Of a stretch of DNA of 38,422 nt, positions 6,541 through 26,350 are shown piece after piece (position 1 is the first letter of the stretch; the number at the start of each line of letters is the position of its first letter). The DNA lies in contig DWXY01000056.1 in assembly GCA_019118935.1 (NCBI GenBank), positions 1 through 38,422 on the forward strand, given 5' to 3'. Source of the DNA: Candidatus Oscillibacter pullicola. Its GTDB lineage: Bacteria; Bacillota; Clostridia; Oscillospirales; Oscillospiraceae. Under the pieces are notes generated by a model, which was not told the DNA's origin, ran no database searches, and saw only the letters and a list, made by a program, of their open reading frames with translations. The position numbers were made by a program, and so were the translations under genes.

Positions 6541-6703
6541 CAGTCTGTCGATAAACCCGGAAATTCAGGAAAACGGGAAGGAAGGGTGTGCGCGGGAAAC
6601 CCAGGAAGGGTGTCCTGCGCCATTCCAATCAACCGTTTTTCAGAACTTTTTGAAGTTCTGAAAAACGTGAGCAGCTTGTCGAAAAGACTTTTTCGACAAG
6701 CTG
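6541..6703 (+). repeat. Intergenic repeat element, copy A (MITE-like, structured)
   Basis: This 163-bp element is shared with 26193-26350. In order: (1) a left end CAGTCTGTCGA that is an imperfect inverted repeat of the right end (reverse complement CAGCTTGTCGA); (2) the segment GGAAATTCAGGAAAACGGGA; (3) a hairpin with outer stem GCGCGGGA/TCCTGCGC enclosing ACCC-AGGAA-GGGT; (4) CAATCAACC; (5) a 15-bp palindrome with core TCAGAACTT; (6) a 13-bp palindrome AGCTTGTCGAAAA/TTTTCGACAAGCT at the right end. It lies between two identical 25-bp hairpins. No protein is encoded convincingly. It could be a small non-autonomous transposable element or a dispersed structured RNA. Confidence 0.8.
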
Positions 6704-6736
6704 GGCGGGCATCCAAAGGATGCCCGCTTTCTTTTC
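6704..6736 (+). terminator. Intrinsic terminator (second hairpin copy with T-run)
   Basis: The same 10-bp GCGGGCATCC hairpin as at 6517-6539, here followed by TTTCTTTT. This is probably the original ilvA terminator; it also lies at the 3' end of the convergent ABC operon. Confidence 0.7.
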
Positions 6737-6738
6737 CG

Positions 6739-7512
6739 TCAATTCCCGGTCTCCAGGGAGATCTGATTGAACATGGCCAGGATGTCGTCCATGGAGGTGG
6801 CGGCTTTCTCCGCCCCCGCCCGGTCCAGCACCACATGGCCCCGGTTCATCATCAGGATCCGGTCTCCGTACTCCACGGCGTAGCGGAGGTTGTGGGTGAC
6901 CATCATGGCCGTCAGGTGCTTTTCCCGGATGATCCTGTCCGTCAGGACCATGATGGTCTCCGCGGTCTTGGGGTCCAGGGCCGCCGTGTGCTCGTCGAGA
7001 ATGAGGAACTTCAGCGGCGTCATGGTGGCCATCAGCAGCGCCACCGCCTGGCGCTGGCCGCCGGAGAGGGCCCCCATCCGCACGTCCAGCTTATCCTCCA
7101 GCCCCAGGCCCAGGGAGGAGAGCTGCTGGCGGTAGAAGTCGATGCGCTTTTTATTGATACCCCGGCCCAGGCCGTAGGACTTGCCCTTGTTGTCCGCCAG
7201 GGACAGGTTCTCCAGCATGGTGAGGTTGGGGCAGGTGCCGGCGGCGGGGTCCTGGTAGACCCGGCCCATGGTGGCGTACCGCTGGTAGTCCTTCAGCCTG
7301 GAGATGCTCTGTCCCCCCACCAGCACGTCGCCGGCCTCCACGGGGATGGAGCCGCAGATGATGTTCAGCAGGGAGGTCTTGCCGCTGCCGTTGCCGCCCA
7401 CGATGGCCACGAACTGGCCCTCCTCCACCGTGAGGGAGAAGTGCTCAAACAGCCGCTGCTCCGTCAGGGTGCCGGGGTTGTAGATCTTCGTGATGTCCCG
7501 TACTTCAAGCAT
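6739..7512 (-). CDS. ABC transporter ATP-binding protein, TrpZ type
   Basis: A 257-aa ATPase with Walker A GGNGSGKTS (about 40-48), signature LSGGQRQAV, and Walker B FLILDEHTAALDP. The DEHTAALDP form, with His in place of Pro, is shared with the second ATPase at 10948-11742 and seems normal for this family. It is the last gene of the operon running from the Trp T-box, and its start overlaps the permease end by 8 bases. It would power uptake through the permease at 7505-8449. Tryptophan as substrate is inferred from the UGG specifier in the leader. Confidence 0.88.
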   Translation of the reverse strand: MLEVRDITKIYNPGTLTEQRLFEHFSLTVEEGQFVAIVGGNGSGKTSLLNIICGSIPVEAGDVLVGGQSISRLKDYQRYATMGRVYQDPAAGTCPNLTMLENLSLADNKGKSYGLGRGINKKRIDFYRQQLSSLGLGLEDKLDVRMGALSGGQRQAVALLMATMTPLKFLILDEHTAALDPKTAETIMVLTDRIIREKHLTAMMVTHNLRYAVEYGDRILMMNRGHVVLDRAGAEKAATSMDDILAMFNQISLETGN

Positions 7513-8449
7513 GGATGATCGCCTCCCCCTTCCGGCCAGACAGCACCAGCACCAGCAGGAACAGCGCCGCCGTGATCAGCTTCATCATATTGGTGGGCAG
7601 CCCCATGCTCATGGCCACCTGGATGCACAGCTTGTAGAGCACGCTGCCCAGCACCACCGCCGTGGTGCCCTGGGGGGAGCCCAGGAAGCGGAGGACCCTG
7701 GACTTCCGCAGCCCCCGGGCCAGCCGAGTAGAGGCATAGAAGTGCATGATGGACACGCCGATGATCACCGCCGCCAGGCCGTACACCAGCTGGCCGGTGC
7801 CCATGGTGGCGGAGAAGCTGCGGGTCTCATGGCAGACGATGCACCCGCCGAAGGCCACCAGGGCGTTGGAGATCACCAGCCCCAGGATCTTCACTGTGCC
7901 CCGGTCCTTGGCCAGAGTGGTCACCAGGGTGGCGTTGTCGCCCACCGCCCGCAGCAGCAGGCCGGACTTCGTGTGGAAATAGGCGTCCAGCAGCAGCTTG
8001 ATGACGATGACCAGCGCCAGGGACACGATTAGCTTCCGCCCGGAGAGGGAGAGATCCCCGAACAGGGCCATCACCGGGGCGGAGGTGAAGATGGTGTCCG
8101 TGCCCCGGTCGATGGTCAGGTTGGACCCGGCGATCTGTAAATTCACGGAGAACAGGGCGGTCATGGTGATGATGCCCGCCAGCAGGTTCCGCACCTTCAG
8201 CTTCACGTGGACCAGGCCGGTGAAAAGCCCCGCCAGACCGCCCACCACCAGAGAGGCGGGCAGCGTCAGCCAGGGATCGACGCCCTTGGTCATCAGCACC
8301 GCCGTGACGGCGGCCCCCAGGGGAAACGTGCCGTCCACCCCCAGGTCCGGGAAGTCCAGAATGGAATAGGTGATATACACGCCGTAGGAGATCAGGGCGT
8401 AGATCAGCCCCTGGATCAGGGTGCTGGTCAGCAGTTCCATCACGTCCAT
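7505..8449 (-). CDS. ABC transporter permease, TrpY type
   Basis: A 314-aa hydrophobic protein with about eight predicted membrane segments and the pattern of branched-chain/ribose-type permeases. Near the N-terminus it has the motif YSILDFPDLGVDGTFPLGAA, matched in the second permease by RILDVADLTVDGTMATGGA. An AGGAGG site lies 11 bases before the ATG. It follows the FAA-hydrolase gene by 27 bp and overlaps the ATPase gene. With the lipoprotein at 9375-10379 it should form an amino-acid importer under Trp T-box control. Confidence 0.87.
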   Translation of the reverse strand: MDVMELLTSTLIQGLIYALISYGVYITYSILDFPDLGVDGTFPLGAAVTAVLMTKGVDPWLTLPASLVVGGLAGLFTGLVHVKLKVRNLLAGIITMTALFSVNLQIAGSNLTIDRGTDTIFTSAPVMALFGDLSLSGRKLIVSLALVIVIKLLLDAYFHTKSGLLLRAVGDNATLVTTLAKDRGTVKILGLVISNALVAFGGCIVCHETRSFSATMGTGQLVYGLAAVIIGVSIMHFYASTRLARGLRKSRVLRFLGSPQGTTAVVLGSVLYKLCIQVAMSMGLPTNMMKLITAALFLLVLVLSGRKGEAIIHA

Positions 8450-8476
8450 GAAAAGAGATGCCTCCTTGTGAAATGA

Positions 8477-9340
8477 TCAGATCACGGTGCTGCGGAGGGT
8501 GCCGATGCCTTCAATGGTGCACTCCACGGTGTCGCCGGACTGGAGGAATCTGGGCGGATCAAAGCCCATGCCCACCCCCGCCGGGGTGCCGGTGGCGATG
8601 ATGGTGCCCGGCAGCAGCGTCATGCCGGCGGTCAGCTCCTCCAGGATCTGCCCGATGGAGGTGATCAGCAGGGCGGTATTGGACTTCTGCCGCAGCTCGC
8701 CGTTCACATGGCTGGTGATCTCCAGCGCCGGGGGATAGGCGATCTCGTCGGCGGTCACCAGCACGGGCCCCATGGGGGTGAAGCCGTCCAGGCTCTTGCC
8801 GAAGTACCACTGCTTATGGCCCGTCTGCAGGTCCCGGGCGGACACGTCGTTGAGGACGGTGTAGCCGAAGATGTAGTCCGCCGCGTCGGCGGCTTTCACG
8901 TCCCGGGCGGCCTTGCCCAGCACCACCGCCAGTTCCGCCTCGTAGTCCAACCGGTCCGTAAGGCCCGCGTGGCGGGGGATGACGCCGCCGGGGGCGCCGG
9001 CTTCGCTGACGCGCTTGGAGAAGTACACCGCCGCTGCGCTGTCTTTGGTGAAGGCATCGGCGCTGTACCGGGCGGATTCCTCCGCGTGGTCCCGGTAGTT
9101 CATGCCCAGGCAGACCACATCCTGCCGGGGGCGGGGGATGGGAGCCAGCAGCTCCACATCCGCCAGCGGGACCGCGCCGCCCCGCTCCGCCGCCGCGGCG
9201 GCAGAGCGCAGGTCGGCAGGGGTCATGGTTTCGATCAAGGTGTTCATGTCGGCGGCGGGGAGGGGCAGCACGCCCTTTCCGTCGGCGGTGAGGGCGCCCA
9301 CATACTCGGCGCCGCTGAGTCGATAGGTGACAAGCTTCAT
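8477..9340 (-). CDS. Fumarylacetoacetate hydrolase family protein
   Basis: A 287-aa member of the FAH superfamily, which includes fumarylacetoacetases, acylpyruvases, oxaloacetate decarboxylases and 2-oxo-acid hydratases. Candidate metal ligands are Glu134 and Glu136 (LDYEAELAVVLGK) and Asp165 (TVLNDVSARD). His85 in GMNYRDHAEE is the usual catalytic histidine. The substrate cannot be read from sequence. It lies inside the Trp-regulated importer operon, between the binding protein and the permease, which suggests a link to catabolism or detoxification of an aromatic or oxo-acid compound. That link is inference. Confidence 0.88.
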   Translation of the reverse strand: MKLVTYRLSGAEYVGALTADGKGVLPLPAADMNTLIETMTPADLRSAAAAAERGGAVPLADVELLAPIPRPRQDVVCLGMNYRDHAEESARYSADAFTKDSAAAVYFSKRVSEAGAPGGVIPRHAGLTDRLDYEAELAVVLGKAARDVKAADAADYIFGYTVLNDVSARDLQTGHKQWYFGKSLDGFTPMGPVLVTADEIAYPPALEITSHVNGELRQKSNTALLITSIGQILEELTAGMTLLPGTIIATGTPAGVGMGFDPPRFLQSGDTVECTIEGIGTLRSTVI

Positions 9341-9374
9341 GAGGAGTTCTCCTTAGTAATGGATTTTGCAGGCG

Positions 9375-10379
9375 TTATTCCGCGCACTCCTGGGCCTCCT
9401 GGGCGATGTCGTCGGGAATGGTGATGCCCAGCTCGGCCGCCGCGTCGGAGTTGATATACAGTCCGTAGTTCTCGATGGTCTCGTAGGGCAGATCTTCACA
9501 GGCGGCCTCGCCGGTGAGGACCTTGGCGGCCATCAGGCCGGTCTGGATGCCCAGCTGGACGTAGTCCAGGCCCGCGCCGCCCACGCAGCCCAGCCGAACC
9601 TGCTCCACCTCGGAGCCGTAGACGGGGATGCCCGCCTCGTTGGTCTTCTCCAGAATGGCGCCCAGCACGCCCACCACATTGTTGTCCGTCAGGTTGGACA
9701 GGCAGTCCACCCCGTGGGACAGCAGAGTGTCCACCGCCTGGGTGACCTCCGCCTGGGAGGTGACGCCCACCGCGTCGATGGTGAAGCCGTAGTCCGCCGC
9801 CAGCTCCTCATAGACGCTGATGGAGTAGACGGAGTTGGTCTCGCTGGTGGTGTAGACGATGCCGATGGTGTCGGCGTCCAGCTGCAATGCCCGGATCAGC
9901 TGGAGCTGGCCCTCCACCGGCAGGGCGTCGGAAGTGCCGGTGATGTTGCCCGCGTCCAGGTGGGCGCCCACCGGGTCGGTGATGGCGGTGAAGATCACGG
10001 GGATGTCCTTGTCCTCCGCGGCGTTGAAGCAGGCGATGGCGGAGTTGGTGGCGATGCCCACCATCAGGTCCACGTCCTCGGCGGAGAAGGTCTGGCCGAT
10101 CTGGGTGGTCATGTTGTCGTCGAAGTTGGCATTCTGGTAGTCCACCTCAAAGTCCGCGCCCTCCACCAGACCGGCCTGCTCCAGGCCTTGGAGGAAGCCC
10201 TCCCGGCAGTTGTCCAGGGAGCCGTGCTGGCCGTACTGACTGATGCCGATCAGGTACTTGACGGGCTCGCCGCCGCTCTCGCCGGAGGCGGCGTCATCGG
10301 AGCCGCCGCAGGCGGCCAGGGACGCCATCATGGTCAGGGACAGGCCGCAGGCGGCCAGCTTCTTCAGCAGATTCATCAT
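9375..10379 (-). CDS. ABC substrate-binding lipoprotein, TrpX type
   Basis: A 334-aa lipoprotein of the ABC_sub_bind (PF04392-like) family. A signal peptide ends in the lipobox LAAC with Cys24, followed by a Gly/Ser linker. The first of two tandem ATGs (10379) is preferred because GGAG lies 8 bases upstream. The start overlaps the stop of a 34-codon frame. The mature domain has the periplasmic-binding-protein pattern, with alternating sheets beginning at KYLIGISQYGQHGSLD. Related streptococcal genes (trpXYZ) are known T-box targets, consistent with the tryptophan specifier here. Confidence 0.88.
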   Translation of the reverse strand: MMNLLKKLAACGLSLTMMASLAACGGSDDAASGESGGEPVKYLIGISQYGQHGSLDNCREGFLQGLEQAGLVEGADFEVDYQNANFDDNMTTQIGQTFSAEDVDLMVGIATNSAIACFNAAEDKDIPVIFTAITDPVGAHLDAGNITGTSDALPVEGQLQLIRALQLDADTIGIVYTTSETNSVYSISVYEELAADYGFTIDAVGVTSQAEVTQAVDTLLSHGVDCLSNLTDNNVVGVLGAILEKTNEAGIPVYGSEVEQVRLGCVGGAGLDYVQLGIQTGLMAAKVLTGEAACEDLPYETIENYGLYINSDAAAELGITIPDDIAQEAQECAE

Positions 10380-10480
10380 GATAGATTCTCCAATCTTTGA
10401 TACAGAATGTTTGAAAGGGGTCCGTTCAGGGAATTGATATCGTGGCACAGGCCGCGCCATCGTCTGGTGTTGTGTTTCAT
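10376..10480 (-). CDS. Possible 34-aa leader peptide upstream of trpX
   Basis: An ATG at 10480 lies 9 bases after a strong AAAGGAG site. The frame (MKHNTRRWRGLCHDINSLNG...) ends with a TGA that overlaps the ATGATG start of the lipoprotein gene, giving potential translational coupling. It lies downstream of the T-box terminator, so it is transcribed only on read-through. It contains one Trp (residue 8), no Trp run, and no recognisable domain. It could be a real small protein, a coupling peptide or chance. Confidence 0.45.
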   Translation of the reverse strand: MKHNTRRWRGLCHDINSLNGPLSNILYQRLENLS

Positions 10481-10517
10481 GTCTCCATACTCCTTTCCCG
10501 GACCGGTCAGGGGAATC

Positions 10518-10792
10518 AAAAAAAGCCCTGCCCCATATTTGGGACAAGACTTGAAACCATCCTGCGGTACCACCCAAGTTGACGCAAAGCGCCCGCTCGT
10601 TCCGCGTACATCCATACGCGCCGCCCGGATAACGGGTGCGGGTCCCGTCAGACGCTACTGAGCGTTTTGCCGTTCGCGCTGCCCTCGCAAGTCCATTCGC
10701 TGGAAAGTTCTCTGCCGTGATCCCACCATCCACGGCTCTCTGAAAGGTGACCTGACCAGGTACTCCTCTTGCTCATCGGTTTTGCTTGATTG
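10518..10792 (-). promoter_or_regulatory. T-box leader, tryptophan (UGG specifier)
   Basis: The leader carries a T-box signature GGGTGGTACCGC (minus strand, about 10575-10564). Its Stem I is closed by GCAAG/CTTGC, contains the GA-motif-like AGGAGTACC and the AGAGAG segment, and carries the specifier loop GAA-TGG-A with TGG at 10693-10695 above a CTGG/CCAG helix. TGG reads tryptophan. The terminator is a 12-pair helix AAGTCTTGTCCC/GGGGCAGGGCTT followed by seven T (10518-10552). Uncharged tRNA-Trp would favour the antiterminator and expression of the downstream importer operon. Confidence 0.92.
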
Positions 10793-10798
10793 CTTTGC

Positions 10799-10827
10799 AT
10801 TATACGAAGCGGCGGCGGAAATGTCAA
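10799..10827 (-). promoter_or_regulatory. Consensus sigma-A promoter of the Trp T-box operon
   Basis: Perfect TTGACA (10822-10827), 17-base spacer, perfect TATAAT (10799-10804) on the minus strand, immediately upstream of the T-box leader. A full consensus promoter fits control by termination rather than initiation. Confidence 0.9.
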
Positions 10828-10888
10828 CCGTGATTTTGCACAAATCTTTTTTGCTGCTTTAAAGAGATAAAATCCAGGGCAAGAACTA

Positions 10889-10913
10889 CCCCGGCAGGAT
10901 GGCCCTGCCGGGG
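10889..10913 (-). terminator. Hairpin after the second ABC operon
   Basis: A 10-bp GC stem CCCCGGCAGG/CCTGCCGGGG lies 35 bp after the ATPase stop at 10948. The following bases on the minus strand are only modestly T-rich, so termination may be inefficient. Confidence 0.5.
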
Positions 10914-10947
10914 AGTAACATGCAGTTCGAATCGGCTTTTCCGCGGC

Positions 10948-11742
10948 TCAGGAGAGCAGCAGCTTGTCATCGGCCTCGTCAGAGCCGCTGACCTTGCTGA
11001 ACAGGGCCAGCAGGTCGGGGACGGTGAGCTTCTTCTTCTCCTCACCGGACACGTCGATGACGATACGGCCGTCGTACATCATGATGAGCCGGTTGCCGTG
11101 GACGATGGCGTCCTTCATGTTGTGGGTGACCATCATGGTGGTGAGGCCGTTCTCCTCCACGATCCGGTCGGACAGCTCCAGCACCTTGGCGGCGGTCTTG
11201 GGGTCCAGGGCGGCGGTGTGCTCGTCCAGCAGCAGGAGCTTGGGCCGCTTCAGAGAGGCCATCAGCAGCGTCAGCGCCTGGCGCTGGCCGCCGGAGAGGA
11301 GCCCCACCTTGCTGGTGAGCCGGTCCTCCAGCCCCAGGCCCAGGTCCCGCAGCAGCTCCCGATAGTCCGCCCGCTCCGTCTTGGTAATGCCCCAGCCCAG
11401 GCCGCGGGGCTGGCCCCGGCGGGCCGCCAGCGCCAGATTCTCCTCGATCTGCATGGTGGGGGCGGTGCCCATCATGGGGTCCTGAAACACCCGGCCAATG
11501 AATTTGGCCCGCTTGTGCTCCGGCAGGCGGGTCACGTCCACCCCGTCGATGACGATGGCGCCGCTGTCCACAGAAAAGGTGCCGGCCACCGCGTTGAGCA
11601 TGGTGGACTTGCCGGCGCCGTTGCCGCCGATGACGGTGCAGAAGTCACCGTCCTTCAGCGTCAGGCTGACGTCCCGGAGGGCCTGCTTTTCGTTGACCGT
11701 CCCGGCGTTGAACGTCTTCCAGATCTCCTTGATCTCAAGCAT
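10948..11742 (-). CDS. ABC transporter ATP-binding protein (second TrpZ-like system)
   Basis: A 264-aa ATPase with Walker A GGNGAGKSTM, signature LSGGQRQAL and Walker B LLLLDEHTAALDP. It starts at 11742, 8 bases after AGGAGG, and overlaps the permease end by 8 bases, as in the first cluster. It is clearly paralogous to 6739-7512, with the same gene order of binding protein, permease, ATPase. The C-terminal tail (GSDEADDKLLLS) differs. Its substrate is unknown. The leader is not a T-box, so the ligand is probably different. Confidence 0.88.
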   Translation of the reverse strand: MLEIKEIWKTFNAGTVNEKQALRDVSLTLKDGDFCTVIGGNGAGKSTMLNAVAGTFSVDSGAIVIDGVDVTRLPEHKRAKFIGRVFQDPMMGTAPTMQIEENLALAARRGQPRGLGWGITKTERADYRELLRDLGLGLEDRLTSKVGLLSGGQRQALTLLMASLKRPKLLLLDEHTAALDPKTAAKVLELSDRIVEENGLTTMMVTHNMKDAIVHGNRLIMMYDGRIVIDVSGEEKKKLTVPDLLALFSKVSGSDEADDKLLLS

Positions 11743-12685
11743 CCTGATCCCCTCCTGTCTTTGCTCCGGCATTGGCGCTCCCGGCGGGCACCTTGACGTG
11801 GACGTACTTCCCCTTCCAGTAGGGGATGGCCAGGAAGGCCGCCACGATCAGGGCGGTGATGAGCTTCATGTCGTCGGTGTTCAGGCCCAGCCAGATGACC
11901 ACCTGGTACACCAGGTAGTACAAAATGGCGCCGATGGCCACGGCCAGCAGCTTCAGCGCGAAGTTGCGGAACACCTTGCCGAAGATCACCTCGCCGATGA
12001 TGACGGCGGCAAGGCCGATGACGATGGCGCCCCGGCCCATGTTCACGTCTGCGAAGCCCTGGTACTGGGCCAGCAGGGCGGAGGACAGGGCCACCAGGCC
12101 GTTGGACAGCATCAGGCCCAGCACCTTGGTGAAGTTGGTGTTGATGCCCTGGGCCCGGGACATGTTGGGGTTGGAACCGGTGGCCCGCAGGGAGGCGCCC
12201 AGCTCCGTGCCGAAGAACCAGTACAGCACCGCGATGACCGCCGCCACAAAAATGGCCACCACCAGGATGGGGTTGTCCAGGCCCAGGGAGCGGACGCTCT
12301 GCTGGTCCACCAGCAGGTCATACTGCCGGGAGCTGACGGGCCGGTTGGCCTGTCCCATGATCCGCAGGTTGACAGAGTACAGGGCCAGCTGGGTGAGGAT
12401 ACCGGCGAGGATCGCCGGAATGCCGCAGGCGGTGTGGAACAGGCCGGTGACCAGTCCCGCCAGCACGCCAGCCAGAAACGCCCCCAGCATCGCCAGCGGC
12501 ACCGGCGCCCCTGCCATGGTCAGCATGATGAAGGTGGCGCCGCCGGTGGCCATGGTGCCGTCCACCGTCAGGTCGGCCACGTCCAGGATCCGGAACGTGA
12601 TGTAGACGCCGATGGCCATGATGCCCCAGATCAGTCCCTGGGCGGCCACGCCCGGCAGGGCGTTGACCAGATGCATGATGTTCAA
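11735..12685 (-). CDS. ABC transporter permease (second TrpY-like system)
   Basis: A 316-aa multi-pass membrane protein paralogous to 7505-8449. A TTG start at 12685 is chosen because GGAGG lies 8 bases upstream; the next ATG, two codons inside, is too far from that site. The N-terminal YITFRILDVADLTVDGT motif and later NGLVALSSALLAQYQG match the family. It is separated from its binding-protein gene by 366 bp carrying a structured repeat, so the operon may be interrupted or read through. Confidence 0.87.
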   Translation of the reverse strand: MNIMHLVNALPGVAAQGLIWGIMAIGVYITFRILDVADLTVDGTMATGGATFIMLTMAGAPVPLAMLGAFLAGVLAGLVTGLFHTACGIPAILAGILTQLALYSVNLRIMGQANRPVSSRQYDLLVDQQSVRSLGLDNPILVVAIFVAAVIAVLYWFFGTELGASLRATGSNPNMSRAQGINTNFTKVLGLMLSNGLVALSSALLAQYQGFADVNMGRGAIVIGLAAVIIGEVIFGKVFRNFALKLLAVAIGAILYYLVYQVVIWLGLNTDDMKLITALIVAAFLAIPYWKGKYVHVKVPAGSANAGAKTGGDQDA

Positions 12686-12752
12686 GTGAAATCCCTCCAA
12701 AATCCCCCGGCCGTTTCCGGAGGCAGTTTGCTGCTCTATTCTAGCAAAGTTC

Positions 12753-13020
12753 AGCGGAAAGGGGAAGCCCCTTTTCCGCTGAAAGTCTGTTGATAAAATT
12801 TGGATGGCGGGACGGAAGGGTGGGTGGCCGCCCCGCGGAGCGTGCCGGAATCCGCCGCCCATAGGACGGAGACCGGGCGGAGGAGATCCCAGGAGAGGGC
12901 TCCGCGCCGGTGAAAGCGGAAGTTTAGCAGATCACAATTTGAAAACATCCGTCGGCTTGTCCAAACGGCCAAAATGGCCGTTTGGACAAGCCGAGCGGAA
13001 AAGGAACATCCTTTTCCGCT
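12753..13020. repeat. Divergent repeat element (copy C) between two similar hairpins
   Basis: This region fills most of the 366-bp gap at 12686-13051; no gene is seen. A hairpin AGCGGAAAGGGG.. (12753-12780) and a similar one, AGCGGAAAAGGA/TCCTTTTCCGCT (12994-13020), flank the element. Its left end AGTCTGTTGATAAA matches copy A (AGTCTGTCGATAAA) at 13 of 14 bases. A helix GCGGAG/CTCCGC encloses CCC-AGGAGA-GGG, echoing the core of copies A and B. The right end is a 19-bp palindrome beginning CGGCTTGTCCAAACGG. The middle is otherwise dissimilar, so homology is probable rather than certain. Confidence 0.55.
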
Positions 13021-19811: not shown

Positions 19812-19817
19812 TGTTCC

Positions 19818-19861: not shown

Positions 19862-19946
19862 AAAACCGGCAGAATCGGAGGGGCGGTCCTGGCCGGTTTT
19901 CTGTGGATTTCGGCAAAGGCCGGGCGCAGAATTTCCGCGCCCGGCC
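19862..19946 (-). terminator. Tandem terminator hairpins after the Zn-ribbon gene
   Basis: Two hairpins lie between the Zn-ribbon gene and the pyrG promoter: GGCCGGGCGC/GCGCCCGGCC (19918-19946) and AAAACCGGC/GCCGGTTTT (19862-19900). The first, 11 bp after the stop, is followed by TTTGCC; the second carries its own T-run. Confidence 0.6.
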
Positions 19947-19956
19947 CTTGGAAGAG

Positions 19957-20184
19957 TCACGGGTCCCCGTAGGTCTGGTGGATCTGGACCAGCTCCATGG
20001 GGGACTCCACCCAATTCTCCACATACCCGCAGCCGCAGCAGACGTAGCGGATCACCGGGATCTTTCCCATGAGGGTATATTTGCTGGTGTAGATGTTGCT
20101 GCCGCTGGCGTAGCGGCTGGGGTGGTCGGGGATTCGGACGATGTCCCTGCTCCCGCACTTGGGACAGACATGGGTATTTTTCAT
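19957..20184 (-). CDS. Small zinc-ribbon protein (75 aa)
   Basis: Starts MKNTHVCPKCGSRDIVRIPD after a GAAAGGAG site. Two CxxC knuckles (CPKCG at 7-11 and CCGCG near residue 53) define a zinc ribbon. Between them lies a conserved-looking IYTSKYTLMGKIPVIRY stretch. The family is widespread in Clostridia with no known function. Its ATG overlaps the stop of a 35-codon gene, placing it at the end of the GntR/ABC-2 operon, where it may be an accessory factor. Confidence 0.75.
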   Translation of the reverse strand: MKNTHVCPKCGSRDIVRIPDHPSRYASGSNIYTSKYTLMGKIPVIRYVCCGCGYVENWVESPMELVQIHQTYGDP

Positions 20185-20288
20185 CTCGGCTCCTTTCGGT
20201 TCAGGAGGGCCGCCCCGCACAGGGCCAGCAGGGCGGCGATGTCCGCCGGGGCCGGCGCCGGGCGGGGCGTTTTCGGTGTATCCGCCAT
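20181..20288 (-). CDS. Possible 35-aa membrane-associated small protein
   Basis: A frame MADTPKTPRPAPAPADIAALLALCGAALLNRKEPR runs from an ATG at 20288, with AGGTGA upstream, to a TGA overlapping the next ATG. It has a Pro-rich head, a short hydrophobic run (about 15-29) and a basic tail. It fills exactly the space between the permease gene and the Zn-ribbon gene. Coupling at both ends makes it plausible, but there is no homology to support it. I infer a small tail-anchored or peripheral protein. Confidence 0.5.
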   Translation of the reverse strand: MADTPKTPRPAPAPADIAALLALCGAALLNRKEPR

Positions 20289-20293
20289 ACCGC

Positions 20294-20905
20294 TCACCTG
20301 CTCCGGCGGCCGTAAAACCGGATGGCGAGAGGGATGGACACCACCGTCAGCACCACGGCGGCGATGGCGGCGGGCACCAGGGAGAGGGACAGGTAGAACC
20401 CGCCATCCAGGGAGGACTGCTCGATGGTGGCGATGCCTCCGGCGCTGGCACACACCAGGAAGATGATGAGGAACATCGCCAGCCGCCCCTTCTCCACACC
20501 GAACCGGAACATCATGGGCAGGGTGATGTCCAGGATGCACACGGCCACGCACACAGACAGCAGGATGATGGGGAGGGAGGGCCCGGTCACATCGCTGAGC
20601 CAGATGACCGACAGGATGGTCTGGAGGACAAAGGTGGCCGCCGCCGCGACGGCCACGCTGATCCAGCCGAAGACGTACTTGCTCAGCACCACGTCCCGGG
20701 CGGAGTAGGGCATCATGGCGGCCATCTGGTCCCACTTGCTCCGCTCGTCATAGGCCAGGGCGGTGTAGGGCAGCATAGAGGCGTACACCACGGCGAAGGT
20801 ACTGTAAAACGTGCCGGGGATGCAGGAGAACACCAGAATCAGCAGCAGGAAGATCTTCATCTGCCGGAAGATCACGTAGTAGTCTTTCAAAAGCAGGGCG
20901 CTCAT
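20294..20905 (-). CDS. ABC-2 type permease
   Basis: A 203-aa protein with about six hydrophobic segments, starting MSALLLKDYYVIFRQMKIFLL. The family pattern (cytoplasmic start LLLKDYY, loop ERSKWDQMAAMMPYSARDVV) matches the ABC-2 permeases paired with YtrA-type GntR regulators. Its start overlaps the stop of the ATPase gene by 4 bases, and the two would form an exporter or a cell-envelope stress transporter. Substrate unknown. Confidence 0.83.
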   Translation of the reverse strand: MSALLLKDYYVIFRQMKIFLLLILVFSCIPGTFYSTFAVVYASMLPYTALAYDERSKWDQMAAMMPYSARDVVLSKYVFGWISVAVAAAATFVLQTILSVIWLSDVTGPSLPIILLSVCVAVCILDITLPMMFRFGVEKGRLAMFLIIFLVCASAGGIATIEQSSLDGGFYLSLSLVPAAIAAVVLTVVSIPLAIRFYGRRSR

Positions 20906-21756
20906 TGCTCCTTCGCTCCTTTCACCAAAAACAGGACGATATCTTCCACCGTGGGCCGCTCCAGCGCCCAGCCCGCGGGCACCAGGGCCCGCCTCACCAG
21001 GCATCGGACGCCGCCGAAGCCGCCGTTCTCCCGGGCCACCACGGCCCCCTCCTGAAGGCTGTTCACCTGGTCCGCCGTGCCCACGAAGATCCCATACTCC
21101 TCCAGCAGCCGGTCCTTCTCGTCGCAGAACAGCAGCCGCCCCTGGTGAAGGAAGGCGATATAGTCGCACAGCTTCTCCAGGTCGCTAAGGATGTGGGAGG
21201 AGATGAGGATGGAGTGGTCCTCCTCCCGGGTGAACTCGTTGAAGATTTCCAGCACCTCATCCCGGACGATGGGGTCCAGACCGGAGGTGGCCTCGTCCAG
21301 CACCAGCAGCCTGGGGCTGTGACTCAGCGCCACGGCAATGGCCAGCTTCATCTTCATGCCCCGGGAGAAGTCCTTGAAGGGCTTCTTCTCCGGCAGGCCG
21401 AAGCGGGTGAGATAGGTCTGGTACTGCTTGCCGTCCCACCGGCGGTAGGTCTTGGCCATGACGCCTCCCACCTGAAGGGCGTTCAGGCTCTCGGGGAAAT
21501 AGGCCTCGTCCAGCACCACGCCGATGTCCTCTTTCACGGAGAGAAACTCCGGCGAGGCGGAATCCGCCCCCAGGACAGTGCACCTGCCGCTGTCCGGCCG
21601 CAGGGCCCCCATCAGCAGGCGAATGGTGGTGGACTTGCCGGCGCCGTTCTCGCCCACCAGGCCGCAGATGGTGCCGCTGGGCACGGTGAGGGACAGGTCC
21701 TGCAAGGTAAAGCCGGGAAAGTGTTTTGTCACATGGCTCAATTCAATGGCGTTCAT
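20902..21756 (-). CDS. ABC transporter ATP-binding protein (exporter type)
   Basis: A 284-aa ATPase with Walker A GLVGENGAGKSTT and Walker B LLVLDEATSGLDP. The signature region is FSRGMKMKLAI rather than the canonical LSGGQ, which is usual for this ABC-2 subfamily. A C-terminal extension of about 60 residues follows the nucleotide-binding domain. It starts at 21756 inside the end of the GntR gene and overlaps the permease, so the three genes are tightly coupled. It powers the permease at 20294-20905. Confidence 0.9.
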   Translation of the reverse strand: MNAIELSHVTKHFPGFTLQDLSLTVPSGTICGLVGENGAGKSTTIRLLMGALRPDSGRCTVLGADSASPEFLSVKEDIGVVLDEAYFPESLNALQVGGVMAKTYRRWDGKQYQTYLTRFGLPEKKPFKDFSRGMKMKLAIAVALSHSPRLLVLDEATSGLDPIVRDEVLEIFNEFTREEDHSILISSHILSDLEKLCDYIAFLHQGRLLFCDEKDRLLEEYGIFVGTADQVNSLQEGAVVARENGGFGGVRCLVRRALVPAGWALERPTVEDIVLFLVKGAKEQ

Positions 21757-22139
21757 ACGTGAGGTTCCTCCTCTTTCAGCAGGATGCGGAGCATTTCCAT
21801 CAGCTCCGACGCCGAGACGCCGCACTGGGCGGCCAGCTCCACGGCGGCGTCCAGGTGGTCCTCCAGCTCCTTCAGCTTCTGCTCCCGGATCAGGTCCAGA
21901 TTCTTCTCCGCCACAAAGCAGCCCTTGCCGGCCACGGTGTAGAGGAAGCCGTCGGCCTCCAGCTCGTCGTAGGCCCGCTTGGTGGTGATGACGGAGATCC
22001 GCAGGTCCTTGGCCAGGGCCCGGATGGAGGGCAGCGCCTCTCCGGGAGAGAGCTTCCCCGCGATGATCTGGGCTTTGATCTGGGAGTAGATCTGATCGTA
22101 GATGGGTTGGTTGGTGGTATTGCGGATGATGAGTTCCAT
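21753..22139 (-). CDS. GntR family regulator, YtrA subfamily
   Basis: A 128-aa protein with the N-terminal winged helix (MELIIRNTTNQPIYDQIYSQ..., recognition helix in RISVITTKRAYDELEADGF) and only a short C-terminal helical dimerisation tail, typical of the YtrA subfamily. The start at 22139 follows AGGAG. YtrA-type repressors usually control the ABC operon they head and respond to envelope stress or antibiotics. Here the promoter overlaps a repeat-rich operator-like sequence, consistent with autorepression. Confidence 0.88.
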   Translation of the reverse strand: MELIIRNTTNQPIYDQIYSQIKAQIIAGKLSPGEALPSIRALAKDLRISVITTKRAYDELEADGFLYTVAGKGCFVAEKNLDLIREQKLKELEDHLDAAVELAAQCGVSASELMEMLRILLKEEEPHV

Positions 22140-22163
22140 GGAAGTCACTCCTGTTCGTGCTGT

Positions 22164-22199
22164 ACATTTACAGTATATACAGTATGCACGGATTGTCAA
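22164..22199 (-). promoter_or_regulatory. Promoter with overlapping operator-like repeats for the GntR operon
   Basis: On the minus strand TTGACA (22194-22199), a 16-base spacer and TATACT (22172-22177). The spacer and -10 carry two TACTGTA repeats, and an outer GTGCAT/ATGTAC dyad spans the site. A repressor bound here would block polymerase; the GntR product is the obvious candidate. Confidence 0.65.
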
Positions 22200-22267
22200 G
22201 AGGGAAACACTGGATTCCGTAAAAAAAATTTTTGTGGTCCTTGGGGCTAGGCTCTTAACAGAAAATG

Positions 22268-22276
22268 TGATACACT
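22268..22276 (+). promoter_or_regulatory. Possible extended -10 promoter for the LRR-VWA-MoxR genes
   Basis: TGATACACT fits an extended -10 (TGn-TACACT) 49 bp before the LRR gene; no good -35 is visible. Confidence 0.4.
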
Positions 22277-22324
22277 ACTGAAGTTGAGAATGACGGCTTG
22301 TCCGGAGAAAAGGAGGTGAGCACC

Positions 22325-23302
22325 GTGGAGACCATCAGCGGCAGCGGAAACTGGAGGCTGACCATCCGCCGGGAGGCGGCGGGGATCACCATCCTGCGGG
22401 CGGCCACCTGCGACGCGCGGGCCCGCCTGCCGGAGACGTTATACGGCCTGCCGGTGACGGCCCTGGGGGACCACGCCCTCTCGCCCACCGCCGCTTCCGT
22501 GGAGGGAGAGGACCTGCTGGTGACCTGCGGCGCCGGGACGGACCCGGGGACCTGGAGCAACCGGGACCTGGAGGACCTGACCCTGCCCCGGCCTCTGGAG
22601 CGGGTGGGGGATTACGCCCTGATGAACTGCGGCGGCCTGCGGACCCTGCGGCTCCACGACGGCATCGGTCAGTGGGGCGGCGGGGTGCTGATGAACTGCC
22701 GGCGGCTGGCAACCTTCCATCTGACCCGGGTGGGGGAGCAGGGGGACACCCTGGCCTATTTCGCAGACGAGCTGCCCTGGGAGCTGGACGTCACCGTGGA
22801 GGAGACGGATGGTACCGTGTTCCGTTTGCTCTTTCCGGAGTACCGGGAGGTCTATGAGGAGAACTGCCCGGCCCACCACTTTGATTACAACATCTTCGGC
22901 GCCGGGTACCCCTATCACCACTCCTTCCGCCGGAAGAAGCTGGATCTGCGGACGTATGACGAGCTGTGGAGCGGCTTTCTGGGCATGGAGCACGACGAGG
23001 ACTGCGCGGTGCGGCTGGCCTTCTGGCGGCTGCGGTATCCGACGGAGCTGACGGATCGGGCGGAGGGGCAGTATCTCCGCTATCTCAAGACCCACGCTGG
23101 TGAGGCGGCGGTCTGGCTGGTGGGGGAGCGGGACATGACGGGCCTGGCCTTCCTGCTGAAAACGGCAGAGCCGGAGACGGCGGAGCTGGCGGCCGCCCGG
23201 GATCTGGCCCGGGAGACCGGCGCCGCCGAGGCCCTGGCCCTGCTGCTGGAACAGCAGCGGGATGCGGCCCCCCGGGGGCTGGACAAGACCTTTGACTTAT
23301 AG
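22325..23302 (+). CDS. Leucine-rich-repeat (BspA-like) protein of a VWA/MoxR cluster
   Basis: A 325-aa protein. The GTG at 22325 lies 8 bases after AAGGAGG. Residues about 30-150 contain BspA/LRR_5-like repeats: a short unit such as LPETLYGLPVTALGDHAL, then LPRPLERVGDYALMNCGGL and LRLHDGIGQWGGGVLMNCRRL. The remaining 170 residues are helical with no recognised domain. No signal peptide is present, so it is cytoplasmic, unlike most BspA proteins. It is followed at 18 bp by the VWA-like gene. It may be a recognition or adaptor subunit for the MoxR-VWA pair (inference). Confidence 0.75.
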   Translation: METISGSGNWRLTIRREAAGITILRAATCDARARLPETLYGLPVTALGDHALSPTAASVEGEDLLVTCGAGTDPGTWSNRDLEDLTLPRPLERVGDYALMNCGGLRTLRLHDGIGQWGGGVLMNCRRLATFHLTRVGEQGDTLAYFADELPWELDVTVEETDGTVFRLLFPEYREVYEENCPAHHFDYNIFGAGYPYHHSFRRKKLDLRTYDELWSGFLGMEHDEDCAVRLAFWRLRYPTELTDRAEGQYLRYLKTHAGEAAVWLVGERDMTGLAFLLKTAEPETAELAAARDLARETGAAEALALLLEQQRDAAPRGLDKTFDL

Positions 23303-23320
23303 CAGGGAAGGAGGCGCGCC

Positions 23321-24691
23321 ATGGCGGCCAAGGACCTGACGGCCATCGGGCTGGAGATTTTGCAGACGGCCCGGAACGAACTGTATCTGAATCTGCCCTA
23401 TCTGGATGTGGCGTTGTGCAGCCTGGACTTCCAGCCCGGCGGGGGCGTGACACTGTCCCTGGCCACCGACGGGGAGACGCTGTATTACGACGGCAGCTTC
23501 CTCTCGGAGCGGTATCTCCGGTCCCGGACGGCAGTGGACCGGGCCTATCTCCACGTGCTGCTCCACTGTATGCTGCGGCACCTGTGGAAGAAGCGGGGCA
23601 GGGTGGCGGAGCTGTGGGATCTGGCCTGCGACGTCGCAGTGGAGAGCATTCTGGACGAGCTGGACTACCCCTGCCTGGCCGGGGGCTTCGTCCCCGCCAA
23701 GCAGAAGTTCTACGGCGAGTGCCGGGCAGAGATGCCGGTGCTGACGGCGGAGGGCATCTACCGCCATCTCCTGCGGCTGGACCTGCCGGCGTATGAGGTG
23801 GCCCGGCTCCAGCGGACCTTTCTGGTGGACGACCATGGACTGTGGGATCCGGACCAGCAGGACCAGGAGCAGCAGAAGCAGAGGGAGCAGAAGTGGCAGG
23901 GCGTCTCCGAAAAGACCCAGACGGGACTGGAGACGGTGCTGGCCGGCAAGGCCACCGGCGGCGAGGCGGTGCTGGAGCAGATCCAGGTGGCCAACCGGGA
24001 CGACGTGGACTACCGGGCCTTCCTCCGGCGGTTCGCCGTGCCCCGGGAGGTGATGGCGGTGGACGGAGACGCCTTCGACTACATCTTCTATACCTACGGC
24101 CTCCAGCTCTACGGCAACATGCCCCTGGTGGAGCCCCCCGAGACCAAGGAGGAGAAGCGGATCGAGGACTTCGTCATCGCCGTGGACACCTCCATGTCCA
24201 CCTCCGGAGAGCTGGTGCGGCAGTTCCTGGCCTGCACCTACGCCATCCTCCGCAGCACGGAGACCTTCACCCGGAAGGTGAACATCCGCATCCTCCAGTG
24301 CGACGACCAGGTCCGGTCTGACACCCCCATCCATGACCTGGAGGAGCTGAAAGCCTATATGGAGCATTTTCAGCTGGTGGGGGGCAGCGCCACGGACTTC
24401 CGGCCGGTGTTCGACCACGTGGCGCAGCTCCAGACGGAGGGGGCCTTCACCTCCCTCCGGGGGCTGGTGTACTTCACCGACGGCATGGGCATCTACCCCC
24501 GGAAACGGCCGCCCTACGACACGGCCTTCGTGCTGCTGGAGGAGCCGCCCCTCTCCGTGAAGATGCCCCCCTGGGCCATCCGGCTGGTGGTGCCCACTCC
24601 GGAGCTGGAGCGGGCCGCCCGGGAGGCGGCGGAGGAGGCCCGGGCCGCCGGGCTGGACCTGATCGATTTGGACGAACTTCCCCAACTGTAA
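23321..24691 (+). CDS. VWA-like protein with metallopeptidase-like N-terminus (DUF2201 type)
   Basis: A 456-aa protein. Residues 1-130 resemble the putative metallopeptidase half of DUF2201, but the HExxH position reads HVLLH (His78, Val79, His82) with another His at 87, so the catalytic Glu is missing. A Gln/Glu-rich linker (about 178-200) follows. The C-terminal von Willebrand A domain (about 283-415) has a complete MIDAS: Asp289-x-Ser291-x-Ser293, Thr358 and Asp387 in YFTDG. A strong GAAGGAGG site precedes the ATG. It is the usual partner of the MoxR ATPase encoded 12 bp downstream. Confidence 0.82.
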   Translation: MAAKDLTAIGLEILQTARNELYLNLPYLDVALCSLDFQPGGGVTLSLATDGETLYYDGSFLSERYLRSRTAVDRAYLHVLLHCMLRHLWKKRGRVAELWDLACDVAVESILDELDYPCLAGGFVPAKQKFYGECRAEMPVLTAEGIYRHLLRLDLPAYEVARLQRTFLVDDHGLWDPDQQDQEQQKQREQKWQGVSEKTQTGLETVLAGKATGGEAVLEQIQVANRDDVDYRAFLRRFAVPREVMAVDGDAFDYIFYTYGLQLYGNMPLVEPPETKEEKRIEDFVIAVDTSMSTSGELVRQFLACTYAILRSTETFTRKVNIRILQCDDQVRSDTPIHDLEELKAYMEHFQLVGGSATDFRPVFDHVAQLQTEGAFTSLRGLVYFTDGMGIYPRKRPPYDTAFVLLEEPPLSVKMPPWAIRLVVPTPELERAAREAAEEARAAGLDLIDLDELPQL

Positions 24692-24703
24692 GGAGCTAAC
24701 GAT

Positions 24704-26212
24704 ATGAACATCAAACAGGCAAAGCAGGAGATCACCAACACCTTGAAGGCGTATCTGGCCAAGGACCAGCTGGGCAACTACCTGATCCCCACGGTGCGCC
24801 AGCGGCCGGTGCTGCTGATGGGCCCGCCCGGCGTGGGCAAGACCCAGATCATGGAGCAGATCGCCGCCGAGACCGGCGTGGGCCTGGTGGCCTACACCAT
24901 CACCCACCACACCCGGCAGAGCGCCATCGGCCTGCCCTTCATTGAAAAGCGCACCTACGGCGGGGAGGAGGTCTCCGTCACCGAGTACACCATGAGCGAG
25001 ATCCTGGCCTCTGTCTACCGGCTGATGGAGCGGACCGGGCTGAAAGAGGGCATCCTCTTCCTGGACGAGATCAACTGCGTCACCGAGACCCTGGCCCCCA
25101 TGATGCTGCAGTTCCTCCAGTGCAAGACCTTCGGCAACCAGGCGCTGCCGGAGGGGTGGCTCATCGTGGCGGCGGGCAACCCGCCGGAGTACAACAAGTC
25201 CGTCCGGGACTTCGACGTGGTGACGCTGGACCGGGTGAAGCGCATCGATGTGGCGGAGGACTACGGCGTGTGGAAGGAGTACGCCCGCCGGAAGAACCTC
25301 CACGGGGCCATCCTCTCGTACCTGGACATCAAGAAGGACAACTTCTACCGGATCGAAAACACGGCGGACGGCCTCCAGTTCGCCACCGCCCGGGGCTGGG
25401 AGGACCTGAGCGAGCTCCTCTACGCCTACGAGACCCTGGGCATTCGGGCGGACCGGGAGGTGGTGGGGCAGTACATCCAGATGCCCCGGATCGCCAAGGA
25501 CTTCGCCAATTACCTGGAGATGTTCTACAAGTATCAAAAGACCTACCACGTGGAGGGGATCCTCAGCGGCACCTGGCAGAACATCACGGTGCTGGAGCTG
25601 CGGGAGGCCCCCTTTGACGAGAAGCTCTCCGTCATGGGGCTGGTGCTGTCCCGTCTCAGCGAAGAGGCCCGGAACACCCGCCGGCAGGACGCTTTGACGG
25701 AGGCCCTCCACACCTCCCTGACGGAATTCCGGGAGAAGATCACGGACGCGCCGCCGCTGACGGTGCTGGACCAGCTGCTGTGGAAGCGCCGCACCGCCAT
25801 GAAGCAGGCCAGGGAGGCCGGCCAGCTGGACAAGGAGTCCCGGGATCTCCGGCAGCGGGAGATCAACGCCCTGGAGGACTACCGCCAGCGGCTGGACCGG
25901 GAGGCCGTGGCCCCGGAGGGGGCCATGGACGCCGTCCGGGGCTGGTTCGCTGAAGAGGTGCGGCGGCGGAAGGAGCAGGTGGAGGCCACAAAGGACATGT
26001 TCGATAACGCCTTCCGCTTCCTGGAGACCACCTTCGGCGACAGCCAGGAGCTGGTGATTTTCGTCACGGAGATCACCGCCGGGTACGATACCTCCTGGTT
26101 TGTGGAGCAGTTCGGCTGCGACGCCTATTTCCGCCACAACCGGGAGCTGCTGTTCGACAGCACCCGCCACCGCATCCGGGAGGAAATCGCCCAAGCTGTC
26201 GATCGGTCCTGA
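24704..26212 (+). CDS. MoxR-type AAA+ ATPase
   Basis: A 502-aa ATPase. The AAA+ module has Walker A GPPGVGKTQ (40-48), Walker B ILFLDEIN (117-124) and sensor-1 Asn159 in AAGNPPEYN. The C-terminal 250 residues are helical and rich in charged residues. MoxR ATPases act with VWA proteins in complex maturation or conflict systems. The last codons, from about AQAVDRS, and the stop lie inside the repeat element at 26193-26350, so the native C-terminus may have been altered. Confidence 0.88.
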   Translation: MNIKQAKQEITNTLKAYLAKDQLGNYLIPTVRQRPVLLMGPPGVGKTQIMEQIAAETGVGLVAYTITHHTRQSAIGLPFIEKRTYGGEEVSVTEYTMSEILASVYRLMERTGLKEGILFLDEINCVTETLAPMMLQFLQCKTFGNQALPEGWLIVAAGNPPEYNKSVRDFDVVTLDRVKRIDVAEDYGVWKEYARRKNLHGAILSYLDIKKDNFYRIENTADGLQFATARGWEDLSELLYAYETLGIRADREVVGQYIQMPRIAKDFANYLEMFYKYQKTYHVEGILSGTWQNITVLELREAPFDEKLSVMGLVLSRLSEEARNTRRQDALTEALHTSLTEFREKITDAPPLTVLDQLLWKRRTAMKQAREAGQLDKESRDLRQREINALEDYRQRLDREAVAPEGAMDAVRGWFAEEVRRRKEQVEATKDMFDNAFRFLETTFGDSQELVIFVTEITAGYDTSWFVEQFGCDAYFRHNRELLFDSTRHRIREEIAQAVDRS

Positions 26213-26350
26213 AATTCAAGAAAACGGGAAGGAAGATAGCTACGAAAGAAACCCAGGAGGGGTGTCTTTCGTTTTCAATCAACCATTTTCAGAACTTTTT
26301 GAAGTTCTGAAAATGCAGGGAGCTTGTCGAAAAACTTTTTCGACAAGCTC
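26193..26350 (+). repeat. Intergenic repeat element, copy B (MITE-like, structured)
   Basis: This shares with copy A (6541-6703) the order of parts: an AAGCTGTCGAT left end; GAAATTCAAGAAAACGGGAA; a hairpin with outer stem CGAAAGA/TCTTTCG around ACCC-AGGAG-GGGT; CAATCAACC; a 14-bp palindrome with core TCAGAACTT; and a right-end palindrome AGCTTGTCGAAAA/TTTTCGACAAGCT. The outer stem differs from copy A in nearly every pair, yet pairing is kept. Unlike copy A it is not between duplicated hairpins, and its left end overlaps the moxR reading frame. Confidence 0.8.

Follow-up and report, generated by a model that had tools for sequence, protein, structure and literature searches.

A short interspersed element with IS1182-type ends, terminator-like insertion sites and a covarying core hairpin

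In staphylococci, IS1272 and TnSha1, both of the IS1182 family, target stem-loops, several of them proven terminators, with no sequence consensus and in either orientation (PMC4923244, PMC5678879). TnSha1 consists of an IS1272 element together with a further, IRL-like end on its upstream side, and carries a passenger (PMC4923244, PMC5678879); duplication of a whole stem-loop has been drawn as a hypothetical route, pathway b (PMC5678879).

The window analysed here (a stretch of 38,422 nucleotides from Candidatus Oscillibacter pullicola) contains two copies of an element described in an earlier note as structured, intergenic and of unrecognised family. Taken together, the evidence presented below makes it quite probable that this element is a transposon, non-autonomous and bounded by IS1182-family ends, that hops from terminator to terminator and carries as cargo a core hairpin most likely selected as RNA.

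Insertion of the two window copies

Both copies are elements of about 160 bp (163 bp for copy 1, 159 bp for copy 2; Table 1). Copy 1 lies exactly where the earlier note had placed it, while copy 2 begins one base before the position 26193 given there. Similarly, the description as intergenic holds for copy 1 and fails for copy 2, which is sited in the last codons of an AAA ATPase gene (24704-26212, Pfam), replaces them and supplies a new stop codon, separating this gene from a NifU-like gene at 26386 (Pfam). The AT-rich palindrome and the right-end palindrome reported to follow the core (hairpins 2 and 3) were found in both copies, and hairpin 3 of copy 1 can be read as a head-to-head pair of terminal repeats (CAGCTTGTCGAAAAGA/CTTTTTCGACAAGCTG).

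In the relative G247 both window sites are empty, with exact junctions, evidencing that both copies were inserted at their sites. Comparison with these empty sites showed that copy 1 inserted at a bidirectional terminator, of which the entire 25-bp stem-loop was duplicated, and that copy 2 entered the foot of a stem-loop, GCCGCCAAGGCGGC, duplicating only 3 bp; the right GCC lies at the 5' foot of this target. A scan for terminator-like sites detected two (0.7 expected), including one on the - strand at 6539-6517 with the tail CTTTTTAC. The outer tail of the left stem-loop serves leftward transcription. Scanning of both copies revealed no promoter-like site at either.

Table 1. Positions of the element copies, their parts and the duplicated target sequences in the window
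Feature	Position	Strand	Basis
Left copy of duplicated terminator stem-loop GGCGGGCATCCAAAGGATGCCCGCT	6516..6540		Single copy in G247 empty site
Element copy 1, 163 bp, ends CAGTCTGTCGATAAA ... CTTTTTCGACAAGCTG	6541..6703	+	Absent from G247, exact junctions
Conserved purine tract CGGGAAGGAAG, copy 1	6574..6584	+	Alignment
Hairpin 1, covarying core GCGCGG-GAAACCCAGGAAGGGTGTC-CTGCGC, copy 1	6590..6620	+	Covariation analysis
Hairpin 2, AT-rich palindrome, copy 1	6634..6667	+	Fold
Hairpin 3, right end, copy 1	6672..6703	+	Fold
Right copy of duplicated terminator stem-loop, then TTCTTTT	6704..6728		G247 comparison; terminator-like scan
GCC, left half of the 3-bp target duplication of copy 2	26189..26191		Empty site in G247
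Element copy 2, 159 bp	26192..26350	+	Site empty in G247 and in at least four further relatives; same insertion in G228
Conserved purine tract, copy 2	26225..26235	+	Alignment
Hairpin 1, covarying core, copy 2	26242..26272	+	Covariation analysis; fold
Hairpin 2, copy 2	26284..26315	+	Fold
Hairpin 3, right end, copy 2	26320..26350	+	Fold
GCC, right half of the 3-bp duplication of copy 2	26351..26353		Empty site in G247

Distribution, stem-loop targets and IS1182-type ends

A model of the core matched 28 of 200 sampled genomes of the family, and the hairpin domain occurs in at least 21 genera of this one family, whose members live in gut and rumen; the numbers of copies are minimum values, since up to 26 candidates were scored per genome in the 200-genome sample. 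The host genome (G000) has eight copies, seven of them model matches and one with an insert in the stem (C59), and the two-contig genome G136 has 11. At least 38 copies sharing 95-100% identity, a recent burst, are present in G001 (40 of 115 candidates scored), where the left end has 88 matches, 52 of them exact, vs 3 in the control; this genome also harbors a second element, which shares these ends and lacks the core. Among the viral contigs searched, L458 holds a true copy, and the only other match (L459) is unrelated. Two matches, in Saccharibacteria (L080) and Nocardioidaceae (L120), were set aside by eye as due to chance, the former despite having about four pairs outside the core. Rfam 15 gave no match at gathering scores for either window place, ruling out a known RNA family, and at relaxed thresholds gave only matches far below those scores; none of the open-access papers listed in literature searches describes the family in its title or abstract. 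The element can be proposed as a structured-RNA candidate unlisted in Rfam and spread over many genera of one family.

The flanks were compared in 107 copies, found by pattern and a stem check and excluding those near contig ends, and a match was called when the score exceeded 22, the 99th percentile for 1000 mismatched pairs (maximum 44). Matching stem-loops were found on both sides in 79 of the 107 copies (65 of 87 in an earlier version, copies near contig ends also left out). The matched segments have a median length of 29 nt, and 76 of 77 surpass the average fold of their own shuffled versions. They are T-rich at the right edge (5.1 of 12 positions vs 2.9 in the background); either this feature or an A-rich left edge was observed in 54 of 77 duplicated stem-loops, and neither in the remaining 23. 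Hence most copies are bounded on either side by the same stem-loop, in many cases one resembling an intrinsic terminator, with no detectable stem-loop duplication in 28/107 copies, nor at copy 2 of the window. The family shares its stem-loop targets with IS1272-type transposition; deletion of the stem-loop with no target duplication, which also defines that type, is not what was observed at copy 1 or in the 79 of 107 copies.

Among copies lying between tandem genes, 21 are sense and 31 antisense (p 0.21). An RNA acting as a sense 3' UTR would be expected to produce a sense bias, which these copies do not show, leaving selection as a sense-strand 3' UTR at each copy unsupported. A cruder gene caller gave 4 sense and 11 antisense copies.

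The ends of the element (CAGACTGTCGATAAA / CTTTTTCGACAAGCTG) match those of IS1182 elements (CAGACTGTCGAAAAAC, CAGTCTGTCAAAGAAC, CAGTTTGTCAAAAAAC), evidencing shared terminal repeats. Three long transposases scored 376-386 bits with NF033551 (cut-off 270) and a 163-aa fragment scored 147. Both ends were recognised in only 5 of 25 transposase loci; two of these five, the full-length IS1182 elements L176 (1522 bp) and L179 (1496 bp), have stem-loops of 32 and 31 bp, respectively, on both sides, and at the other three (L174, L177, and L178) no pair of matching stem-loops was present. The end type is thus common to full-length IS1182 elements from related bacteria, and two of the five with both ends recognised share the duplication as well. 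At locus L406 the core is joined directly to an IS1182 left end and the start of a transposase gene, at the place of hairpin 3; the right end of this composite is unseen because the contig ends 59 codons into the transposase. The core was also sought within IS1182 elements, at 29 transposase loci, many of them fragments or distant relatives, and its model matched none (best 11.7 bits, E 0.87), so that the core behaves as cargo.

Element and transposase are only loosely associated, which counts against the transposon reading: a transposase match was present in 4 of the 28 core-positive sampled genomes (G086, G097, G129, and G162) and in 16 of the 172 core-negative ones (20 of 200 altogether), and a further search, which hit 4 of 17 genomes, found none in G000, G001 or G136; two other searches of G000 and G001 were negative as well. 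The copy in L169 adjoins a 516-aa transposase, which is part of an IS with different ends and was taken as a chance neighbour. The element resembles a MITE in lacking a transposase gene, in its small size, in its repeated copies and in its insertion, shown by the empty site. Its hairpins and 3'-end sites are also reminiscent of REP-like elements mobilised by a RAYT (Y1) transposase, and in G001 one left end is followed by a gene judged by eye to be RAYT-like. This gene, however, is bracketed by its own repeat (GTGTCAATGGGGACGGTTC-like), and the sequence beyond the shared left end differs. Duplication of a whole stem-loop and terminal inverted repeats of IS1182 type are moreover at odds with Y1 chemistry. 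Mobilisation by a RAYT is considered very improbable.

Covariation of the core hairpin

The core (GAAACCCAGGA, then A or G, then GGGTGTC) is flanked by GCGCGG/CTGCGC, with one G-T pair, in one window copy and by CGAAA/TTTCG in the other, exactly as the earlier note had it. The inner core pairs too (GA.ACCC/GGGT.TC, with an A.G mismatch) around a five-base loop, and folded as RNA the two copies gave z = -7.3 and -7.9, with none of 200 shuffles as good for each. Across 101 distinct sequences, in which the outer stem pairing is kept, 97% of the cells of hairpin 1 are paired (G-T 114, A-C 1), 117 cells are changed on both sides of a pair vs 20.5 after shuffling, and covariation has a score of 0.322 vs 0.152, neither value being reached by any of 500 shuffles. 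Two weaker measures stay within the range of the shuffles, namely pairs with any two-sided change (7 vs 5.6; reached by 88/500) and pair types (16 vs 15.9; 327/500). Sliding the partners by 1-3 columns reduced pairing from 97% to 36-61%. Alignment with the model is itself biased towards the structure; 13 distinct stems gathered without it also mostly pair (G-T 7, A-C 1, other non-pairs 2). The compensatory change first noticed in two copies is therefore not due to chance, as judged from shuffles and slid controls, and the selection on structure suggested at that time has stronger support than two copies could provide, though the spread of the element as a transposon had been missed.

Conservation of the core in the set gathered by its exact 19-base sequence results from how that set was selected, and no inference was drawn from apex identity among representatives (18/25 found), which is biased by the manner of finding. 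A protein-coding core was ruled out, as a 124-nt stretch of 85 copies holds no conserved open frame (the best of six frames is open in 41/85). Neither of the two observations that the earlier note named as refuting its interpretation was thus made, the outer stem being retained in other copies and the core falling in no conserved frame.

The large excess of G-T over A-C pairs indicates that one strand is favoured, which favours RNA or single-stranded DNA over a double-stranded palindrome. Hairpin 1 could accordingly be a single-stranded DNA structure employed in transposition, bound for instance by the transposase or a host factor at strand transfer, a reading that we consider unlikely. G-T pairs are tolerated in single-stranded DNA as well and the insertion targets are stem-loops too; in addition, copies occur in both orientations relative to neighbouring genes and the window copies have no promoter-like site, so that plus-strand transcription need not occur at many copies. 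On the other hand, transposition seems not to need the core, since its model matches none of the transposase loci that share these ends and the second element of G001 has these ends and no core. Replication-strand bias was not significant either (60 vs 40, p 0.07; 22 vs 19 in a second set). The copies of G136 seemed perfectly ordered by position, with five plus followed by six minus. With the origin near 2.25 Mb, as located by sampled GC skew, eight of these 11 copies (a tandem pair taken as two) are on the leading strand, two are opposed and one is at the boundary; given the lack of significant bias in the other sets, replication-strand targeting was rejected.

Strong covariation would also be expected of a host regulatory RNA, riboswitch-like or small, repeated by chance and with no transposon origin. 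A few copies lie just upstream of genes, glutamine synthetase-like (L017) and rpmH (L048), and that of L020 lies between acpP-like and rnc-like genes (all names by eye). The empty sites with exact junctions refute such an RNA as a full account; the duplicated stem-loops vary from locus to locus, the copies form near-identical bursts and no common neighbouring gene was noticed, so we give this explanation very little probability. The reading retained here takes the core hairpin as cargo that is most likely under selection as an RNA of the plus strand.

Proposed explanation and known systems

It can be hypothesized that an IS1182 copy inserted beside the hairpin, which was probably acquired by recruitment of an upstream IRL-like sequence as the second end, in the manner described for TnSha1. 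Hairpin 3 would then represent the two terminal repeats remaining after loss of the IS interior. An IS1182 transposase acting in trans would be the putative mobiliser. Each duplicated stem-loop would keep only its outer U-tract, so that both neighbouring genes could still terminate, now beyond the element, which would thereby be placed in 3' untranslated RNA with little harm. A guess is that the RNA binds a host RNA-binding protein or the ribosome via the purine tract and the AGGAR/NTCAG loop. More tentatively still than the transposon reading itself, and with somewhat more doubt than confidence, the domain may be a mobile non-coding RNA that IS1182 elements picked up at its own terminator and move between terminators, selected as RNA whatever sub-family of ends carries it and acting in trans or on the recipient mRNAs. 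If true, host mRNAs acquire the hairpin as a 3' module. Cultured Oscillibacter-like or Vescimonas strains would lend themselves to tests of its transcription and function.

Among known systems, group IIC introns are likewise mobile, contain structured RNA and take terminator stem-loops as targets; unlike the family described here, they are about 2 kb long, encode a reverse transcriptase and are not known to produce a target duplication. BOX, RUP, and SPRITE of Streptococcus pneumoniae derive from parent elements other than those of this family. They are comparable in description, as short interspersed repeats in a different host; their transcripts are reported to fold and some BOX copies to be expressed (PMC3049150, PMC10969869).

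The closest known parallels are IS1272 and TnSha1, with which the element has in common the IS1182 transposase family, stem-loop or terminator targets, the lack of a target sequence consensus and insertion in either orientation. Its copies, with the exception of L406, have no transposase gene, and in place of a protein gene as passenger they carry a structured sequence without a conserved reading frame. In IS1272, the member that has been studied, and in TnSha1, the target stem-loop is lost wholly or in part and nothing is duplicated, whereas the element usually duplicates it whole, which suggests a route by which it may reach dozens of copies at gene ends with termination intact. Copy 1 constitutes a clear natural case, with its empty site, of a transposon duplicating an entire terminator stem-loop, an outcome that realises the pathway drawn as hypothetical by the authors of the IS1272 work (PMC5678879).

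Structure and mobility of the element

The two structured copies described in an earlier note from the sequence alone are present in the window (see table), both fold much better than shuffled sequences, and comparison with Rfam revealed no family covering the element. From left to right, a left end (CAGTCTGTCGATAAA in copy 1) is separated by a variable spacer from a purine tract (CGGGAAGGAAG), which stands 5' of the first of three hairpins. Hairpin 1 contains the core pointed out in that note, hairpin 2 is an AT-rich palindrome and hairpin 3, which forms the right end, looks like two terminal repeats placed head to head.

Features of the window
Feature	Position	Strand	Remarks
tRNA, cut by window edge	1-43	-	Rfam
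Element copy 1	6541-6703		163 bp
ABC transporter ATP-binding gene	6739-7512		contains stretch 6806-7076
Stretch A	6806-7076		73% identical to stretch B
T-box leader	10537-10785	-	Rfam RF00230, 97.1 bits
Stretch B	11036-11306		presumably in a paralogue of the ABC transporter ATP-binding gene
AAA ATPase gene	24704-26212		Pfam
Element copy 2	26192-26350		159 bp

The element is mobile. Both copies are missing from G247, a relative in the same genus. At the site of copy 1, where the junction was read in this genome only, the matches to the left and right flanks have 25 bases in common, and a single stem-loop, GGCGGGCATCCAAAGGATGCCCGCT, occupies the empty site versus two in the window, flanking the element on each side. 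Copy 2 is shared with G228 and absent from five of the relatives listed (L377, L378, L379, L381 and L382). Its empty site reads GCC directly followed by GCCGCCAAGGCGGC; in the window the element is accompanied by a 3-bp duplication of GCC at the base of that stem-loop. This insertion supplied a new stop codon to the AAA ATPase gene and broke its ATGA overlap with a NifU-like gene (overlap deduced from the G247 sequence; genes assigned by Pfam).

Terminators as targets

Scanning a collection of genomes for the exact core retrieved at least 120 stretches. The matches listed were labelled Oscillospiraceae, Oscillibacter, Dysosmobacter, Ruminococcaceae, or unspecified Clostridia, Eubacteriales, Bacillota or bacteria, two matches outside these groups being treated as chance. 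Among the 107 copies with enough flank, 79 showed a similarity between left and right flanks that exceeded the 99th percentile of a mismatched-pair control (score 22; control maximum 44). The matched segments are 29 nt long at the median and, in 76/77 cases, fold more stably than the average of their shuffled versions. They are enriched in T at the right edge (5.1 of 12 positions vs 2.9 in the background; six or more T in 35/77 segments vs 7/75), and 54/77 segments have either a T-rich right or an A-rich left edge. The element targets terminators, usually duplicating the stem-loop.

The paired stem-loops are direct repeats in 39 cases, have the loop inverted in 8 and are not decidable in 32. 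In the inverted copies (L003, L044, L085, L086, L102, L131, L199 and L267; 8/107), as in the full-length insertion sequence (IS) at locus L176, the loops on the two sides are reverse complements of each other, as though one of the stem-loops had flipped. At copy 1 of the window, the left stem-loop carries its T-tail on the minus strand and its right-hand counterpart on the plus strand; as each keeps its outer tail alone, the two convergent genes can both still terminate, beyond the element. The neighbours of 153 copies, called with a simple custom gene caller that left at least one neighbour uncalled in 63, were convergent in 34, tandem sense in 21, tandem antisense in 31 and divergent in 4. 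No sense bias relative to transcription was found among copies with called neighbours, nor a significant replication-strand bias, so the copies taken together show no sign of selection for sense transcription.

In three genomes two copies lie in the same orientation some 190-200 bases from each other (G136:C1:156208 and 156398; G031:C43:3716 and 3915; G097:C77:12419 and 12620), as though a second insertion had struck a stem-loop already duplicated. Vescimonas fastidiosa pMM35_01 supplies a named carrier strain: its copy (L460, NZ_AP023416.1 177207-177339; 72% identity) is located between a hypothetical gene and recJ with no annotated feature underneath. Partial or full matches were also observed in gut-sample records that are labelled phage or viral (MT836810.1, MT838893.1, MT838447.1 and L458, the last with stem-loops on both sides), which may represent prophage-adjacent host DNA.

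The core hairpin as probable structured cargo

A covariance model of the core, applied to 200 family genomes of 106 genera, detected it in 28 genomes and 21 genera, and did not find it in 29 transposase loci. In G001, a genome with a recent burst, another element carries the same left end without the core; out of 30 left-end loci read in this genome, 16 continue into the core, 5 do not and 9 stop at a contig edge. The core therefore behaves as cargo. This second, longer non-autonomous element (L453-L455) has a similar right hairpin, lacks the core hairpin and at L453 is bordered by a stem-loop on both sides. At L457 (G001:C1) a RAYT-like gene, recognized by eye on the reverse strand at ~1097-1843 and flanked by GTGTCAATGGGGACGGTTC-like repeats, adjoins a left end of the element.

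The compensatory change reported earlier for two copies extends to 101 distinct sequences, in an alignment fitted to the model and with related sequences that are not independent: 97.0% of cells pair vs 88.1% in shuffles, and 117 cells are changed on both sides of a pair, a value reached by 0/500 shuffles. Two weaker measures were no higher than in shuffles: 7 pairs were ever changed on both sides, and 16 pair types occurred. In divergent sub-families the apical stem changes too (GAAACCC..GGGTGTC to GAAAACC..GGTTGTC), with 26 compensated cells at a single pair. Wobble-type cells are G-T in 114 cases and A-C in 1 (52 and 1, by subtraction, without the outermost pair), which is not expected of a symmetrical duplex palindrome; 13 distinct stems taken without the model gave 7 and 1. 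This evidence indicates that the structure of the core hairpin is under selection.

Inserts of a few to ~60 bases were seen within hairpin 1 in different genomes: in the host genome (G000:C59 ~40132-40346; L007, L010), in G247 (L452) and at L031, L105, L071, L212 and L214. Several lie close to the A.G mismatch where the outer stem meets the inner one, and those of C59 and L452 both start with CTGC and carry GGAG towards their end; the inserts are possibly a second small fixed-site element or tolerated junction helices.

IS1182-type ends and comparison with known systems

Judged from sequence, the ends of the element are those of IS1182 elements. Among the matches of a search for Pfam domains of palindrome-targeting transposases in 12 genomes, G010 showed transposase fragments with the element's ends, a stem-loop adjoining each. 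Relatives were detected in 20/200 family genomes; three long proteins score 376-386 bits to NF033551 (IS1182 family, cut-off 270) and the query fragment 147 bits. Both ends were recognized in 5 of the 25 loci from these 200 genomes. Two of these ISs have a whole stem-loop on either side, of 32 bp with the loop inverted at L176 (1522 bp) and of 31 bp in direct orientation at L179 (1496 bp); at L174, L177 and L178 the ends are present and no matching stem-loop pair was found. ISfinder reportedly notes that IS1182-family members may have long direct repeats.

Against the interpretation proposed here, transposase and element rarely share an assembly (4/28 carriers), and no transposase was detectable in the assembly of G001. 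Multi-copy ISs are frequently missing from such assemblies, which is an excuse for the missing transposase, not a result. Target deletion by IS1272 and the lack of a sense or significant replication-strand bias among copies count against it too.

At locus L406 (G238), left end, core and hairpin 2 run straight into an IS1182 left end, in the position taken by hairpin 3 in other copies, and then into the first 59 transposase codons, where the contig stops. Hairpin 3 is probably the remnant of such an IS. By analogy with TnSha1, an IS1182 copy beside a stem-loop would have used a second, upstream left end, generating a composite whose IS was later reduced to hairpin 3.

No description of the element or the hairpin was found among the open-access papers searched, judged by titles and abstract starts. 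The targeting of stem-loops and terminators by IS1182-family elements is already known (PMC4923244, PMC5678879). Duplication of the whole stem-loop is a pathway drawn as hypothetical in PMC5678879. According to the same paper, IS1272, the studied staphylococcal member, deletes its target, whereas the stem-loop is usually duplicated here; TnSha1, as portrayed in PMC4923244, arose when an IS1182-type copy next to a stem-loop used another left end lying upstream of it, the same route that we infer for the present element.
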